Of a stretch of 56,207 nucleotides of DNA, positions 15,679 through 19,912 are shown one piece after another. A program made the translations under genes and the position numbers. The notes beneath the pieces were generated by a model. The model was not told the DNA's origin, ran no database searches, and saw only the letters and a list, made by a program, of their open reading frames with translations. Origin of the DNA: Ilumatobacteraceae bacterium (GTDB taxonomy: Bacteria > Actinomycetota > Acidimicrobiia > Acidimicrobiales > Ilumatobacteraceae); the NCBI GenBank assembly GCA_021298435.1, contig JAJTFJ010000007.1, forward strand, positions 1 through 56,207, given 5' to 3'. How positions within the stretch are numbered: the stretch's first letter is position 1; each line of letters opens with the position of its first letter.

Positions 15679-16317
15679 GTGTCCACACTTTTCATGTCGC
15701 CCAAAGGCGGCAACTGCACCACAGTGACTGCATCTGCATTCTCACTCATGTCCGCTATTCGCGGTACTAATACATTGCTTATTGATCTCTGCGGAGATGT
15801 TCCAGCCGCAATCGGTATGGCCGAGCCACATGGCCCTGGCATCAACGACTGGCTTGATGAGGACAACATTGGCGATCCGCAACAGATGGTTCTTCTCGGC
15901 ACTCCAGTGATTCCAGGACTTGTCGTTGTCCATCGAGGTGCTCGCTTTGTTGACGGAGAACCTCGCTGGAAGGCGCTAGCCCAAGCAATCTCTGAACTTC
16001 CGCACGATGTCATTATCGATGCGGGGACTACGTATGTTCCCGAAGCACTGACGTCAGCAATGGGCAACGTTTCGATGGTGGTGAAGCCCTGCTATCTCTC
16101 TCTACGCCGTGCCTCGCGATTGCCACGGCCTTCCAATGTGTTCGTCATCAAAGAGGACAACAGAGCTCTCACCGTGAAGGACGTGGGCAATGTGCTTGGC
16201 GTCCCGATTGCTGCAGAGATCCCGTACGAGGCGGCCATCTCTCGAGCAGTTGATGCGGGACTCCTCCCCGCTCGTGTAGAGCAACTGTTCGGCCATTGCT
16301 TCTTCCCACGCAAGTGA
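15679..16317 (+). CDS. CpaE/Ssd-like pilus-assembly ATPase homologue with degenerate P-loop
   Basis: A 212-residue MinD/CpaE-fold protein, first gene of the Tad-type cluster. The deviant Walker A region reads SPKGGNCTTV where KGGxGKTT is expected: the signature Lys is kept but the P-loop Gly-Lys is replaced, so ATP hydrolysis is doubtful. The second segment LLIDLCGDVPAAIGM keeps the Asp. The usual N-terminal receiver-like domain of CpaE is absent. In actinobacteria the equivalent (Ssd-type) also has divergent ATP motifs. It probably localises the pilus machine. Its stop overlaps the next start as TGATG. Confidence 0.8.
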   Translation: MSTLFMSPKGGNCTTVTASAFSLMSAIRGTNTLLIDLCGDVPAAIGMAEPHGPGINDWLDEDNIGDPQQMVLLGTPVIPGLVVVHRGARFVDGEPRWKALAQAISELPHDVIIDAGTTYVPEALTSAMGNVSMVVKPCYLSLRRASRLPRPSNVFVIKEDNRALTVKDVGNVLGVPIAAEIPYEAAISRAVDAGLLPARVEQLFGHCFFPRK

Positions 16318-17222
16318 TGATGTCCACCATTGGCGTCTTGCAGGAACATCTCGATAACCCCGATGTCAACGAAGTCATGGTGGTGGAAGGTGGCAATGTT
16401 TGGTTAGAAGATGCACATGGACTGCACCCCGCTGGTCAACTCAACCCCGACCAGATCTCTCAGTGCATCGAGCACATCTGTCGGGCATCCGGCAGGCGAG
16501 TTGATCTCTTGTCGCCCATTCTCGATGCTCGCCTGCATGATGGTTCTCGAGCCTGTGTTGTCCTGCCGCCCATCTCTCTCGGTGGGTGCACCATCAACAT
16601 TCGAAAGTTCTCAAGGCGAATTCTTCCCCTTGCAGCCTTTGGACCATCAGCCTGCACCGACATTTTGAAACATGTGATTCATGAACGCATGAACGTTGTG
16701 GTGTCCGGTGCAACGTCAAGTGGGAAGACCTCACTGTTGTCTGCTGCCGCTTCACACTTTTGTTCCAGCGAACGACTAGTAGTTGTAGAAGACACTGCGG
16801 AACTGCGCTTCAACAATTCCCACGTTGTTCGTCTACAAACACGGCCCGCAAATTCAGAAAACCTTGGCGAGCTCACATTGCAACAGTTAGTTCGCACATC
16901 TCTTCGGCTGCGCCCCGACAGATTGATTGTCGGAGAGGTGCGTGGCGCAGAAGCGATTGACATGTTGATGGCATTAACCACGGGCCACCGAGGGAGTTGG
17001 GCAACAGTGCACGCCACCTCTGCCCGGGACACTGTGTCCCGATTAGCAGCAATGATCACACGAGATTCTCCACAGTGGTCACATCAACAATCGCAAGATC
17101 TAGCCACCACCGCTCTTGATGCGATCGTGTACATCGAGCGACTACCCAACGGTCGTCGACACATCTCTGAGATTCTGCACATCACCAAAGATTCCACGCA
17201 GCCTCTCTACGAGGCAACGTGA
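16317..17222 (+). CDS. tadA: TadA/CpaF-type secretion ATPase
   Basis: About 301 residues from ATG 16317, which overlaps the upstream stop. A GspE/CpaF-family hexameric ATPase that powers Flp pilus assembly. Visible motifs are the N-terminal DVNEVMVVEGGNVWLED, the Walker A G-A-T-S-S-G-K-T, the Asp box VVVEDTAELRF, Walker B RLIVGEVRGAEA and the His box TTGHRGSWATVHATSA. It is shorter than typical TadA (about 350-450 residues) because the N-terminal region is trimmed. Cytoplasmic face of the inner membrane; partners are the fused TadB-TadC protein encoded next. Confidence 0.93.
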   Translation: MMSTIGVLQEHLDNPDVNEVMVVEGGNVWLEDAHGLHPAGQLNPDQISQCIEHICRASGRRVDLLSPILDARLHDGSRACVVLPPISLGGCTINIRKFSRRILPLAAFGPSACTDILKHVIHERMNVVVSGATSSGKTSLLSAAASHFCSSERLVVVEDTAELRFNNSHVVRLQTRPANSENLGELTLQQLVRTSLRLRPDRLIVGEVRGAEAIDMLMALTTGHRGSWATVHATSARDTVSRLAAMITRDSPQWSHQQSQDLATTALDAIVYIERLPNGRRHISEILHITKDSTQPLYEAT

Positions 17223-18391
17223 GGCACATCATCTTTTTCGTCCTCACATTCAGCATTGTTATGTGGTTTCTAAGCCCTCGATTTTTTCTCTTCATGGATC
17301 AACGCGTAGCGAGTCAATACGTCGCTGACCTGATTGCTCCACCTCAGCAGAAACCACTTCACACCAGTGTGGAAACGCCTCGTGAAATTGGTTATGCGAG
17401 GAAGCACAGACAACGTTCGGTTTCGCACACTCTTCCTGAATACGCCCAATGTCTTGACTCACTGGCGCGGGCGACGCGCTCGCATCAACACCCGCGTGAT
17501 GCCCTCATTGCCACGCTTCCCCATCTCCCTGAGTCGCCTGCACACGTCCGAGTAGTCGATGATCTTCGCAACGGCCAAGAGATTGATGAATCGCTATCGC
17601 TGCAGGAATGCAATGACCATGAACAACGATTCTTTGAATTCTTACGCGTCTCACTTGTGCACGATGTTTTTATTCCACAGGCTCTTGAACAGGCGGCCGA
17701 TCTCATCAGAGAAGATGTTCGACATCATCAAGACATTGCAACGGCAACGGCGCAAGCACGCTCGTCTGCAACTCTCCTCACCTTGTTGCCATTTGTCGTG
17801 CTCCTACTCCTTCTCCTCGCCTCATCTACCGCTCGTCAAGGCGCACTCACATCTCCGTTTGTTCTCACCATCGGAGTCGGCATCATCCTGAACCGAGTCG
17901 GAGCGTGGTGGATCCAACAAATGGTTCGTAGGTCGAGCGTGAGTACTCCGGATCTCTCCTCATCACTCGCTCAGCGACTGTGTGTGACGCTTCGTGCAGG
18001 TGTGTCATTGCGTGATGCAGTTGAGGCGTGGGCTGCAGAGTCAGAGCCATCGCTGCATCAAGCTCTCGTGCGTGGAGAACCGCTCGCCACTGCACTACAT
18101 GAATTCGCTCATCGACACCCTGGTGGGTCTCATCAACTTGTGCAAGTGCTTCTCGAAGCTGATCGTGATGGACTCCCAGTGATTCACACAGTCAGCCGTC
18201 TCTCGTTAGAGATGCGCACTCATCGGCGTCAACAAGCAGACATCAGAGTTCGTCAACTGCCTACAAAGTTGATGCTTCCCCTTGTCCTCTGCGTATTGCC
18301 TTCTTTCATATTCCTGACGGTGATTCCCATCGTCCTAGCGAATCTCAGTCAGTTCATTCTCTCTCCTCCCCCGCTACCCACTATCTCGTAA
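17219..18391 (+). CDS. Single-chain TadB-TadC fusion (two type II secretion F domains)
   Basis: A 390-residue membrane protein starting at GTG 17219 (GTGA overlap with tadA). Residues about 1-25 form a membrane helix. Residues about 75-215 read as a TadB-type F domain (LPEYAQCLDSLARATRSHQHPRDAL...) closed by a helix pair (LLTLLPFVVLLLLLL; FVLTIGVGIILNRVG). Residues about 245-385 repeat the fold as a TadC-type F domain (LAQRLCVTLRAGVSLRDAVEAWA...RRQQADIRVRQLPTKLMLPLVLCVLPSFIFLTVIP). TadB and TadC are normally two proteins; here one chain supplies both. The frame is continuous, with no stop or shift at the junction. Confidence 0.85.
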   Translation: MRHIIFFVLTFSIVMWFLSPRFFLFMDQRVASQYVADLIAPPQQKPLHTSVETPREIGYARKHRQRSVSHTLPEYAQCLDSLARATRSHQHPRDALIATLPHLPESPAHVRVVDDLRNGQEIDESLSLQECNDHEQRFFEFLRVSLVHDVFIPQALEQAADLIREDVRHHQDIATATAQARSSATLLTLLPFVVLLLLLLASSTARQGALTSPFVLTIGVGIILNRVGAWWIQQMVRRSSVSTPDLSSSLAQRLCVTLRAGVSLRDAVEAWAAESEPSLHQALVRGEPLATALHEFAHRHPGGSHQLVQVLLEADRDGLPVIHTVSRLSLEMRTHRRQQADIRVRQLPTKLMLPLVLCVLPSFIFLTVIPIVLANLSQFILSPPPLPTIS

Positions 18392-18398
18392 GGACTCC

Positions 18399-18602
18399 AT
18401 GCACTCGACCACATCATCTCGACATCGTTCTCGTGGACAAGCCACCACTGAATACGCCTTAGTGCTACTTGCCGCAGCCATCATTGCCACGTTGGTCATC
18501 GCGTGGGCAACTGCCGGAGGTGGTGCAGGCCAAATCGGCTCTCTCTTCGACAACATCTTTGACGGCATTCTTCAACGTGCGAATCCTCCCGTACAAGGAT
18601 GA
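18399..18602 (+). CDS. Flp-type pilin (DUF4244-like), 67 aa
   Basis: Short pilin precursor preceded by AAGGA. A 13-residue basic leader (MHSTTSSRHRSRG) is followed by QATTEYALVLLAAAIIATLVIAWA. The Gly-Gln junction with Glu at +5 and Tyr at +6 matches the Flp prepilin cleavage motif, and the hydrophobic segment is the assembly helix. The mature protein of about 54 residues would be the major subunit of the pilus built by the upstream genes. It lies 7 bp after the TadB-TadC stop and overlaps the TadE-like start by 26 bp. Confidence 0.9.
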   Translation: MHSTTSSRHRSRGQATTEYALVLLAAAIIATLVIAWATAGGGAGQIGSLFDNIFDGILQRANPPVQG

Positions 18603-18954
18603 TTCCGGTCAGGCAACAGTTGAGTTTGCACTTCTGTTGCCATTATTTGTTGCTTGCATAGGAGTCTTGATTGCCACGACTGCACTTGCGCTGTCATCAC
18701 TGCGTCTTGCAGACACTGCTCGCACTGCTGCTCGGATTGCTAGTACTTCGAACGACCCACAGACTGCTGTGAGTTCCTACATCGCAGAAACTGGCGTTGA
18801 TTCACGAGTTGTCCTCGATGATCAACGCCAGTTTCTCACTGTGTATGTATCTCAACGGATTCGTCTTCCCCTGATCGGGGTTCCGATTCCTGTGGTCAAA
18901 ATATCTTCACACATCACTGTGATGTATGAAGGAGTTCCTACGCTCCTTGGCTAG
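18577..18954 (+). CDS. TadE-like minor pilin / pilus assembly protein
   Basis: About 125 residues if started at the GTG at 18577, inside the pilin gene. The N-terminus GQATVEFALLLPLFVACIGVLIATTALAL is a typical TadE membrane anchor with a pilin-like Gly-Gln-Ala-Thr-x-Glu-Phe motif, followed by an Arg/Ala-rich extracytoplasmic part (ADTARTAARIAS) and a beta-rich C-terminus. It probably is a minor pseudopilin. Last gene of the Tad cluster; its 3' end overlaps the opposing secreted-protein gene by 17 bp. The start could be elsewhere in the frame. Confidence 0.82.
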   Translation: MRILPYKDDSGQATVEFALLLPLFVACIGVLIATTALALSSLRLADTARTAARIASTSNDPQTAVSSYIAETGVDSRVVLDDQRQFLTVYVSQRIRLPLIGVPIPVVKISSHITVMYEGVPTLLG

Positions 18955-19912
18955 TTGTGCCTTGAGCAGGTGCACCAGGTGTTGCGCCGAACTGATGTCC
19001 GCCACCATGGCCGTGACCACCACGTCCACCTTTGCCACCAGGACCATGACCGCCCTTGCCTCCGACCGGGCGAACACCGTTCACCATGTCGTCAAGACGA
19101 GTCGTGAATTCTGCAAGCTTTGCGTCGGCTTCAGCCTGCGTGTGCTCGCCGGATGCAACCTCTTCGTCAAGGTGTGCCTTGAAGTCAGAAGTCAGTGTTG
19201 CCTTCACGTCGGCAATGTCAACATTCTGTGCATCAGCAATCTGCTTGATCGTCTTACCGGACTTCAACTCTGTCTGGAGTTCTGTCTCGGTCAACTTCAA
19301 TGTTGTTGCCAGAGTTGCTGTTGCAAACTTCTGTGGTCCGTGACCACCCTTGCCACCATGTCCGCCGGGACCATGTCCACCCTTGCCACCACGCATTGGA
19401 AGGCCAGCCTTATTCACCATTTCGGTGACGCGTGTCTTGAACTCTGCAAGCTTGGCATCTGCCTCTGCTTGAGTGTGCTTTCCAGAAGCAACTTCTTCAT
19501 CAAGGTGTGCCTTGAATGCTGCAGTCAATTTTGCAATCACTTCATCAAGATCAATGTTCTTAGCTTTTGCAACGTCGGCTACTGACTTGCCCGCTTCCAG
19601 TTCTGTCTTCAGTTCAGCCTCGGTCATTCCCAAAGCCTTGGCAGCTTCTGCAAGAGGCGATGGTCGACTTGTTGAACCAGCAATGGCACCCGACGCTGTC
19701 TCTACAGATTCAGCACTGACCATTCCTTCAGCTTCGAGACTTCCAAGTTGCGATGCGTCTGTGGTGCTGTTCGCTGATGCGACGACTGCTGGGGTGCTGT
19801 TTCGTGCGACCTGAGCGCTGGCGAAGCCTGTGAGTCCGAGGACTCCGGCACCAGTTGCGACGACGAGACCTGCGGCCACTGCGACCTTTGTAAAACGGGA
19901 GTTGATCTTCAT
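18938..19912 (-). CDS. Secreted His/Gly/Lys-rich two-repeat protein
   Basis: A 324-residue exported protein. Signal peptide at residues 1-33 (KVAVAAGLVVATGAGVLG...ASA|QV). After a Ser/Thr/Ala-rich spacer come two tandem units of about 105 residues (87-193 and 197-308). Each has a helical part (LxxTExELxTELxxGKxxxxIA..., then AHLDEEVASGxHTQAEADAKLAEF, nearly identical in both) and ends in a GGKGGHGPGG-type tail. The His/Gly/Lys tails suggest metal, polyphosphate or nucleic-acid binding; this is inference. It is transcribed divergently from a two-component system, which probably controls it. AAAGGAAC upstream serves as ribosome-binding site. Confidence 0.85.
   Translation of the reverse strand: MKINSRFTKVAVAAGLVVATGAGVLGLTGFASAQVARNSTPAVVASANSTTDASQLGSLEAEGMVSAESVETASGAIAGSTSRPSPLAEAAKALGMTEAELKTELEAGKSVADVAKAKNIDLDEVIAKLTAAFKAHLDEEVASGKHTQAEADAKLAEFKTRVTEMVNKAGLPMRGGKGGHGPGGHGGKGGHGPQKFATATLATTLKLTETELQTELKSGKTIKQIADAQNVDIADVKATLTSDFKAHLDEEVASGEHTQAEADAKLAEFTTRLDDMVNGVRPVGGKGGHGPGGKGGRGGHGHGGGHQFGATPGAPAQGTTSQGA
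18989..19324 (-). repeat. Second internal repeat unit of the secreted protein
   Basis: Residues 197-308: helical segment followed by a longer Gly/His/Lys/Arg tail (GGKGGHGPGGKGGRGGHGHG). The central 24 residues match unit 1 except for single changes (for example Lys to Glu in SGxHTQ). Confidence 0.75.
19334..19654 (-). repeat. First internal repeat unit of the secreted protein
   Basis: Residues 87-193: helical segment LAEAAKALGMTEAELKTELE... and the GGKGGHGPGGHGGKGGHGP tail. Duplicated in tandem with the unit downstream. Confidence 0.75.

Follow-up and report, generated by a model that had tools for sequence, protein, structure and literature searches.

Tad platforms described so far

In its classical form the Tad platform consists of two chains, TadB and TadC, and we take the Caulobacter proteins CpaG and CpaH to be TadB and TadC, respectively. 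Published modelling of CpaG-CpaH gives, as described there, a trimer-under-hexamer arrangement, and in an AlphaFold3 model of CpaGH the N-terminal helix of CpaH is presented as a gate between heterodimers. A fused platform protein is described from Micrococcus luteus, which according to Angelov et al. 2015 (PMC4322843) has two tad clusters: in tad-2, TadB and TadC are encoded by one fused ORF, and beside it stands a tad-1 locus with separate genes. By the account given there, both clusters are required for surface Flp complexes and for transformation, a tadBC deletion strain is listed, transformation is abolished by deletion of any tad gene except tadB, and the gene for the prepilin peptidase is unlinked. 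In a report on Rhodoluna lacicola (PMC8591293), one tadBC homologue is placed in putatively dark-regulated groups together with com genes. According to Denise et al. 2019, TadB of the actinobacterial generic systems examined has no second domain and is therefore no product of fusion.

The tad cluster and its platform gene

The window, by which we mean the whole stretch of DNA analysed (56,207 nucleotides), corresponds to contig C25 in an assembly of 1.53 Mb and 56 contigs, whose completeness is estimated at 76.5%. A tad cluster occupies positions 15679-18954, in the order tadZ-like, tadA, tadBC, flp, tadE, with the following features:

15679..16317, + strand: TadZ/CpaE/Ssd-like ParA-type protein, 212 aa (NCBIfam TIGR03815, E 3.7e-6, 26.3 bits against a cut-off of 154)
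16296..17222, + strand: TadA ATPase (T2SSE; Pfam PF00437, E 1.5e-38; NCBIfam TadA family, E 1.1e-73, below cut-off)
17219..18391, + strand: TadBC, fused TadB-TadC platform protein, 390 aa (ORF, Pfam and profile comparison)
17396..17920, + strand: F1, TadB-type T2SSF domain with C-terminal TM pair, residues 60-234 (N-half profile, hhalign; TM 183-201 and 214-232)
17921..18376, + strand: F2, TadC-type T2SSF domain with C-terminal TM, residues 235-386 (best Pfam stretch 252-367, hhalign; TM 355-373)
18399..18602, + strand: Flp major prepilin, 67 aa, cleavage context G/QATTEYA (DUF4244, E 6.5e-5, below cut-off; motif and position)
18577..18954, + strand: TadE-like minor pilin, G/QATVEFA (Pfam TadE, E 1.3e-7, above cut-off)

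The platform gene is an uninterrupted ORF from a GTG at 17219 to the stop at 18391. Its first 4 nt, GTGA, are also the last 4 of tadA, and it lies with the gene for the TadA-type ATPase on one side and that for the Flp prepilin on the other. In its product Pfam recognises T2SSF twice (E 5.2e-18 and 65.6 bits for the whole protein, where the cut-off is 25.2), and in a genome-wide search the two halves scored separately above the T2SSF cut-off (31.4 and 38.3 bits). At the level of sequence profiles the protein is thereby shown to carry two F domains, one of TadB and one of TadC type, joined via the C-terminal membrane pair of TadB. We read it as the platform that a Tad pilus (type IVc, Flp) has in the inner membrane, made here as a single chain, TadB followed by TadC.

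Among the neighbouring genes, the start of tadA is more likely an ATG near 16317, overlapping the tadZ stop, than the TTG at 16296 at which the longest ORF opens. The Flp prepilin was called by what we take to be the Flp motif; among loci whose downstream sequence was long enough, such a motif falls within the next 500 nt in 53 of the 64 with a fused gene and 45 of the 48 with separate genes. The TadE-like pilin scores just under the cut-off of 40 for NCBIfam TadE_Rv3655c (39.2 bits, E 8.1e-10), and its GTG start at 18577 is uncertain, the longest ORF running from 18469 to 18954. A gene for a secreted-looking protein (18938-19912, - strand) runs towards tadE and shares 17 nt with its end; the protein has His/Gly-rich tracts and a pair of helical units that resemble each other, and a Pfam scan returned no family above cut-off for it.

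An earlier note on this DNA had described the cluster as small, as indeed it is, and as lacking both a TadZ-like gene and a prepilin peptidase gene. The first omission is mistaken for the cluster, in that the gene called "CpaE-like" is itself of TadZ type: its best NCBIfam match is Ssd/CpaE_hom_Actino, at a score far below the family cut-off, and an ORF matching TIGR03815 (E 1e-3 or better) was found in 88 of 128 loci scanned. The second is mistaken for the genome, in which a peptidase of 216 aa is encoded on contig C9, unlinked to the tadBC cluster. The Walker A motif of the TadZ-like protein is degenerate, reading KGGNCTT in the clade of the window, the window included, and mostly KGG[SNA]GTT in the relatives printed; KGGxGK[ST] is absent from the best TadZ hits in the 88 loci, some of which are partial.

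The same note took the fused platform for a distinct architecture. This had been overtaken since 2015 by the fused tadBC of M. luteus tad-2 (PMC4322843), and the window TadBC is a further example of that described variant. Matched by description, M. luteus TadBC (Mlut_18180) likewise is one ORF in a small cluster with the order tadA-tadBC-flp, and its genome likewise encodes ComEC and an unlinked prepilin peptidase and has another tad locus in which tadB and tadC are separate. The differences, as far as the published descriptions go, are three. The 2015 paper gives no TadZ orthologue for M. luteus (though a paper of 2021 assigns TadZ/CpaE to a gene elsewhere in that genome), whereas tadZ comes first in the cluster here; TM prediction gives three segments for M. 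luteus TadB/C and four for the window TadBC; and tad-2 ends in a TadG-like gene, of which none was seen in the window cluster.

A second tad locus, ComEC and possible function

Contig C27 carries a second tad locus with tadA, tadB, tadC and genes for two TadE-like proteins and one TadG-like protein; the T2SSF match of its TadB is just below the Pfam cut-off, and the first TadE-like protein is below it too. In this locus (L068, G000 C27:43000-51000) tadB and tadC are separate, minor-pilin-like genes are present, and a 417-aa protein is encoded that has no Pfam match at E 0.1. A partial ComEC match (profile positions 1-168 of 270) is found on contig C52. Across 61 genomes, a platform hit and ComEC occurred together in 49, platform only in 3, ComEC only in 3 and neither in 6 (Fisher p 1.1e-4), and the corresponding counts in the 32 more complete genomes were 27, 1, 1 and 3 (p 0.003); these statistics ignore ancestry. 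The association was looser between a tad-1-type TadC and ComEC (p 0.007 over the 61 genomes and 0.11 in the 32 more complete ones), and tad-1 and tad-2 scarcely went together (p 0.047 over all 61 and 0.51 in the more complete 32).

From this combination we infer that the fused platform, the separate-gene tad locus and ComEC would act together in taking up DNA through an Flp pilus built from two loci, on the pattern of Micrococcus luteus. The pilus could instead serve attachment or surface sensing, in which case the co-occurrence with ComEC would reflect ancestry or the completeness of the assemblies. Tad pili are described as mediating adhesion, biofilm formation, predation and surface sensing, and ComEC and the platform each occur without the other in three of the 61 genomes. 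However, in the nearest described case, an actinobacterium with a fused tadBC and a second tad locus, the system is needed for transformation, and no obvious difference in adherence is reported to have been seen. We regard a role in attachment as quite possible but less likely than one in DNA uptake.

Membrane topology and predicted working of the fused platform

By Kyte-Doolittle hydropathy, a crude threshold method from which all membrane segments given here were called, the window TadBC is laid out as TM 4-22, F1, TM 183-201 and 214-232, F2, TM 355-373. The two F domains had been credited with separate membrane pairs, which does not hold in the window: the only pair is the middle one, which belongs to the TadB part, and no membrane pair of TadC's own precedes F2. 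Among 70 fused ORFs, exactly two segments lie between the domains in 45 and exactly one follows the second domain in 68. In separate TadC proteins of other families (n=16) the F domain is preceded by two segments in 11, three in 3 and none in 2, and in those of the window's family (n=36) by none to two. Judged by hydropathy, then, fused TadC halves appear to lack an N-terminal membrane pair of their own.

Compared with classical TadB and TadC, or CpaG and CpaH of Caulobacter, the window has the same components, that is, one F domain of TadB type and one of TadC type, a TadA/CpaF ATPase and an adjoining Flp gene, but in one chain instead of two. It differs further in that its TadC half is devoid of the N-terminal membrane segment, the gate of the CpaGH model as that model is described; the CpaH-type gate helix finds no counterpart in the fused TadC half, and the sole N-terminal TM lies in the TadB part.

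In the working that we propose, each TadBC chain would replace one TadB-TadC heterodimer, and three chains would sit under the TadA hexamer with each F domain docked on one TadA subunit, following the model published for another species. The prepilin peptidase, encoded elsewhere in the genome, would release the Flp pilins, and ATP-driven movement would feed them into the filament. A 1:1 ratio of TadB to TadC, fixed by fusion, can reasonably be expected of such a platform.

Distribution and phylogeny of the fused and separate states

A match to the TadBC protein was found in 52 of the 61 genomes, that of the window included. Within the window's genus (32 genomes, G000-G031) the state was fused in 23, among them one locus, L048, that is open at a contig end ahead of the joint; separate tadB and tadC were found in four (G020, G021, G027 and G031), one was truncated by a contig end inside the first half (G005), and four gave no match. 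Of the 28 genomes of the genus that gave a match, 23 thus have a single ORF and not two proteins with one F domain each. When ten fused proteins of relatives were scanned with Pfam, seven had two T2SSF stretches and three (L126, L167 and L187) had only one at a threshold of E 0.01, so that in these divergent members the second domain is recognised from the profiles built here.

Over 298 genomes of the order, two of the matches listed outside the family spanned the query (G235 and G394), both of them single ORFs. Over 396 genomes of the phylum (E at most 1e-22) a match was found in 42, with 16 spanning matches outside the order; 14 of these 16 were examined and all 14 were single ORFs with both halves, 11 of them in one family (f67). 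A plasmid collection yielded three weak partial hits, none spanning 80% of the query. The statement of Denise et al. 2019 should be qualified accordingly: some actinobacterial lineages do have a second domain in TadB. The scattered fusions also provide natural fused and separate pairs on which stoichiometry and the proposed gate helix could be tested.

On a TadA tree of 87 rows, from which near-identical rows and rows of undetermined state had been dropped, the fused and separate states change 12 times, and 9 of these changes are forced by well-supported branches. A platform tree built from the two F domains (86 rows) gave 11 changes, 9 of them again forced by well-supported branches. A first quick TadA tree with fewer outside families (88 rows) had given 9, and a TadZ tree made by a quick method (63 rows, weak support) gave 9, of which 2 are forced by supported branches. 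Rows were partly picked for looking fused, and these figures count changes, not prevalence, and do not separate gain from loss. One single change was obtained in 0% of 200 bootstrap trees of TadA, in a bootstrap that was not fully settled and included two very long rows. Placing all fused rows in a single clade was rejected by an AU test (p 7e-100), as was a single clade of the family's fused rows (p 1e-57), both on the TadA tree, to which the single-origin test was confined. Fused rows from the phylum-level search stand away from family f1 on that tree. One genome, G191, holds two different fused TadBC loci, L107 and L125, which lie apart on the TadA tree; their branches are long, and support is weak in places.

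Proposed origin of the fusion at the tadB/tadC overlap

Among the 52 separate loci there are 41 whose tadC start, taken as the one closest to the tadB stop, shares exactly 4 nt with that stop, a count that is partly automatic, since with a TGA stop and frame 2 any preceding A, G or T scores; for the remaining 11 the spacing runs from an overlap of 16 nt to a gap of 14 nt. The two genes are in relative frame 2 in 49 of the 52. As a control we compared the base before TGA in tadB stops with that in tadC or tadBC stops: the base is A or G in 43 of the 48 tadB stops and in 37 of the 70 others (p 2e-5); counting A only, the figures are 30 and 12 (p 6e-7). These p values are no more than a guide, the rows being related. 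The DNA between the end of the first-domain match and the start of the second measures 0-93 nt in 68 of 70 fused loci (the outliers are L182 with 171 nt and L185 with 237 nt) and 23-550 nt in the 52 separate loci. In one genus (g2) fused and separate loci form sister clades with the same motifs flanking the joint. The separate tadB of four g2 loci (L057, L137, L138 and L139) stops in CTGA, and in these four a CTG start of tadC with a 4-nt overlap fits as well as ATG, GTG or TTG at -16 or +14.

These observations suggest a route by which tadB and tadC, translationally coupled through a 4-nt overlap, would have been merged by a small frame-changing indel in lineages where the N-terminal membrane segment of TadC was already gone; loss of the segment and then a small frame change would have made the fusion. 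The changes on the trees could be read the other way, the fused gene being old and the separate state in the family resulting from secondary, recurrent splits. Such a reading would agree with tree counts that are blind to direction, and with the separate TadC of the family, which in many cases has no more than 154-176 aa, the kind of length that cutting a fusion would leave. Against it, the 4-nt overlap is also present in 13 of 19 separate loci in which TadC has a long N-terminal part (gap at least 281 nt), and therefore the overlap and the separate state look ancestral; repeated splitting would, moreover, need the overlap to be recreated each time. We consider general fission unlikely, although, given the exceptions and the short TadC genes, it may have occurred in some lineages. 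Returning to fusion by merger, the explanation as a whole, namely a single-chain Tad platform that replaces the heterodimer, serves a two-locus pilus for DNA uptake and arose by fusion at the 4-nt overlap, seems to us quite probable.

Identity of the two halves and comparison with GspF

In order to assign the halves we used records in which tadB and tadC follow tadA as separate genes. There were six of these, all proteobacterial (L100-L105; four from Marinobacter, one from Modicisalibacter and an unclassified one). The N half finds its match in the gene next to tadA (41-50 bits), and the C half in the gene that follows (57-60 bits). In pairwise hhalign comparisons of profiles, the N half matched the Marinobacter-type TadB with P 97 (E 9e-11) against P 15 for TadC, and the C half matched TadC with P 98 (E 2.5e-13) against P 57 for TadB. 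The order TadB then TadC proposed in the earlier note is thus upheld with the halves compared separately, and the second half, whose failure to resemble an F domain would have undone the proposal, is one by profile.

A platform of GspF/PilC type, as in T2SS or T4aP, would have had two F domains from the outset and involve no fusion of TadB and TadC. The layouts are alike, E. coli GspF and HofC having two F domains per chain as F1-TM-TM-F2-TM, and F2 matches their N-terminal domain with P 91 (C-terminal domain, P 0.65). Each half, however, matches its Tad counterpart better, the neighbours are tadA, flp and tadE, and in relatives the halves are separate genes at the same place, so that this origin is very improbable and a GspF-type identity was rejected on profiles and gene context. 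TadBC differs also by an extra N-terminal TM and by having its TadC-type domain, whose profile resembles the N-terminal domain of GspF, at the C terminus. The two domains were not nearest to the N- and C-terminal domains of GspF/PilC in that order, and when the PDB was searched with the fused profile, the best hit was the GspF cytoplasmic domain, at E 0.46.

Whether the domain order is swapped relative to GspF was assessed with two GspF-type sequences, E. coli GspF and HofC. The domain assignment of Denise et al., applied here, makes the order of the fusion swapped. F1 leans weakly to the N-terminal domain as well (P 23, against 2.4 for the C-terminal domain), the Marinobacter-type TadC profile alone matches neither domain (P 0.2 and 0.8), and the TadB profile alone gives P 26 and 7. 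With the lean of F1 and a TadC that matches neither domain, the evidence for a swapped order is mixed. This lowers the odds of a broader reading, in which TadB and TadC, products of an ancient fission of the platform, were re-fused many times in Actinomycetota in the domain order opposite to that of the ancestor, by small frame changes at the 4-nt overlap after loss of the TadC gate helix. We put it forward tentatively, as plausible but falling somewhat short of probable. If it were true, the TadB-TadC heterodimer would correspond to one subunit of PilC type, and the gate would be dispensable. The existence of a natural TadB-TadC fusion in any case supports the equivalence of one TadB-TadC pair to one GspF/PilC platform subunit, which published work states as a hypothesis. 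What the present analysis adds, and we consider it of moderate interest, is the repeated change between fused and separate states, the 4-nt overlap and the lost TadC segment.

Reality of the joint

As judged from its sequence, 17219-18391 is a genuine single-chain TadB-TadC: the fusion recognised in the earlier note is borne out by one ORF with two T2SSF domains and a conserved joint, and the survey of related genomes suggested there found the junction again in relatives and in other assemblies. The same single ORF occurs in relatives at 96%, 73% and 46% identity, and the same joint in records that differ in accession prefix and isolate name. In three comparisons the joint is gapless and substitutions favour third codon positions; against the 73% identical relative, residues 205-260 show 13, 9 and 29 substitutions at codon positions 1, 2 and 3. 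An incomplete assembly in many contigs, and separate tadB and tadC genes that are mostly out of frame and could be merged by a one-base error, would suit a sequencing or assembly error that joined adjacent genes, but the joint is conserved in frame across assemblies and shows no gaps and a third-position bias, and such an error, which had been named as a possible refutation, is therefore excluded for practical purposes. The closest named records are titled as Actinomycetota, Acidimicrobiaceae or Ilumatobacteraceae MAGs, and some name lakes (Baikal, Pavin, Erken). Three records titled Bifidobacterium breve (L089, L093 and L098) encode proteins of the acidimicrobial group and are probably mislabelled MAGs.
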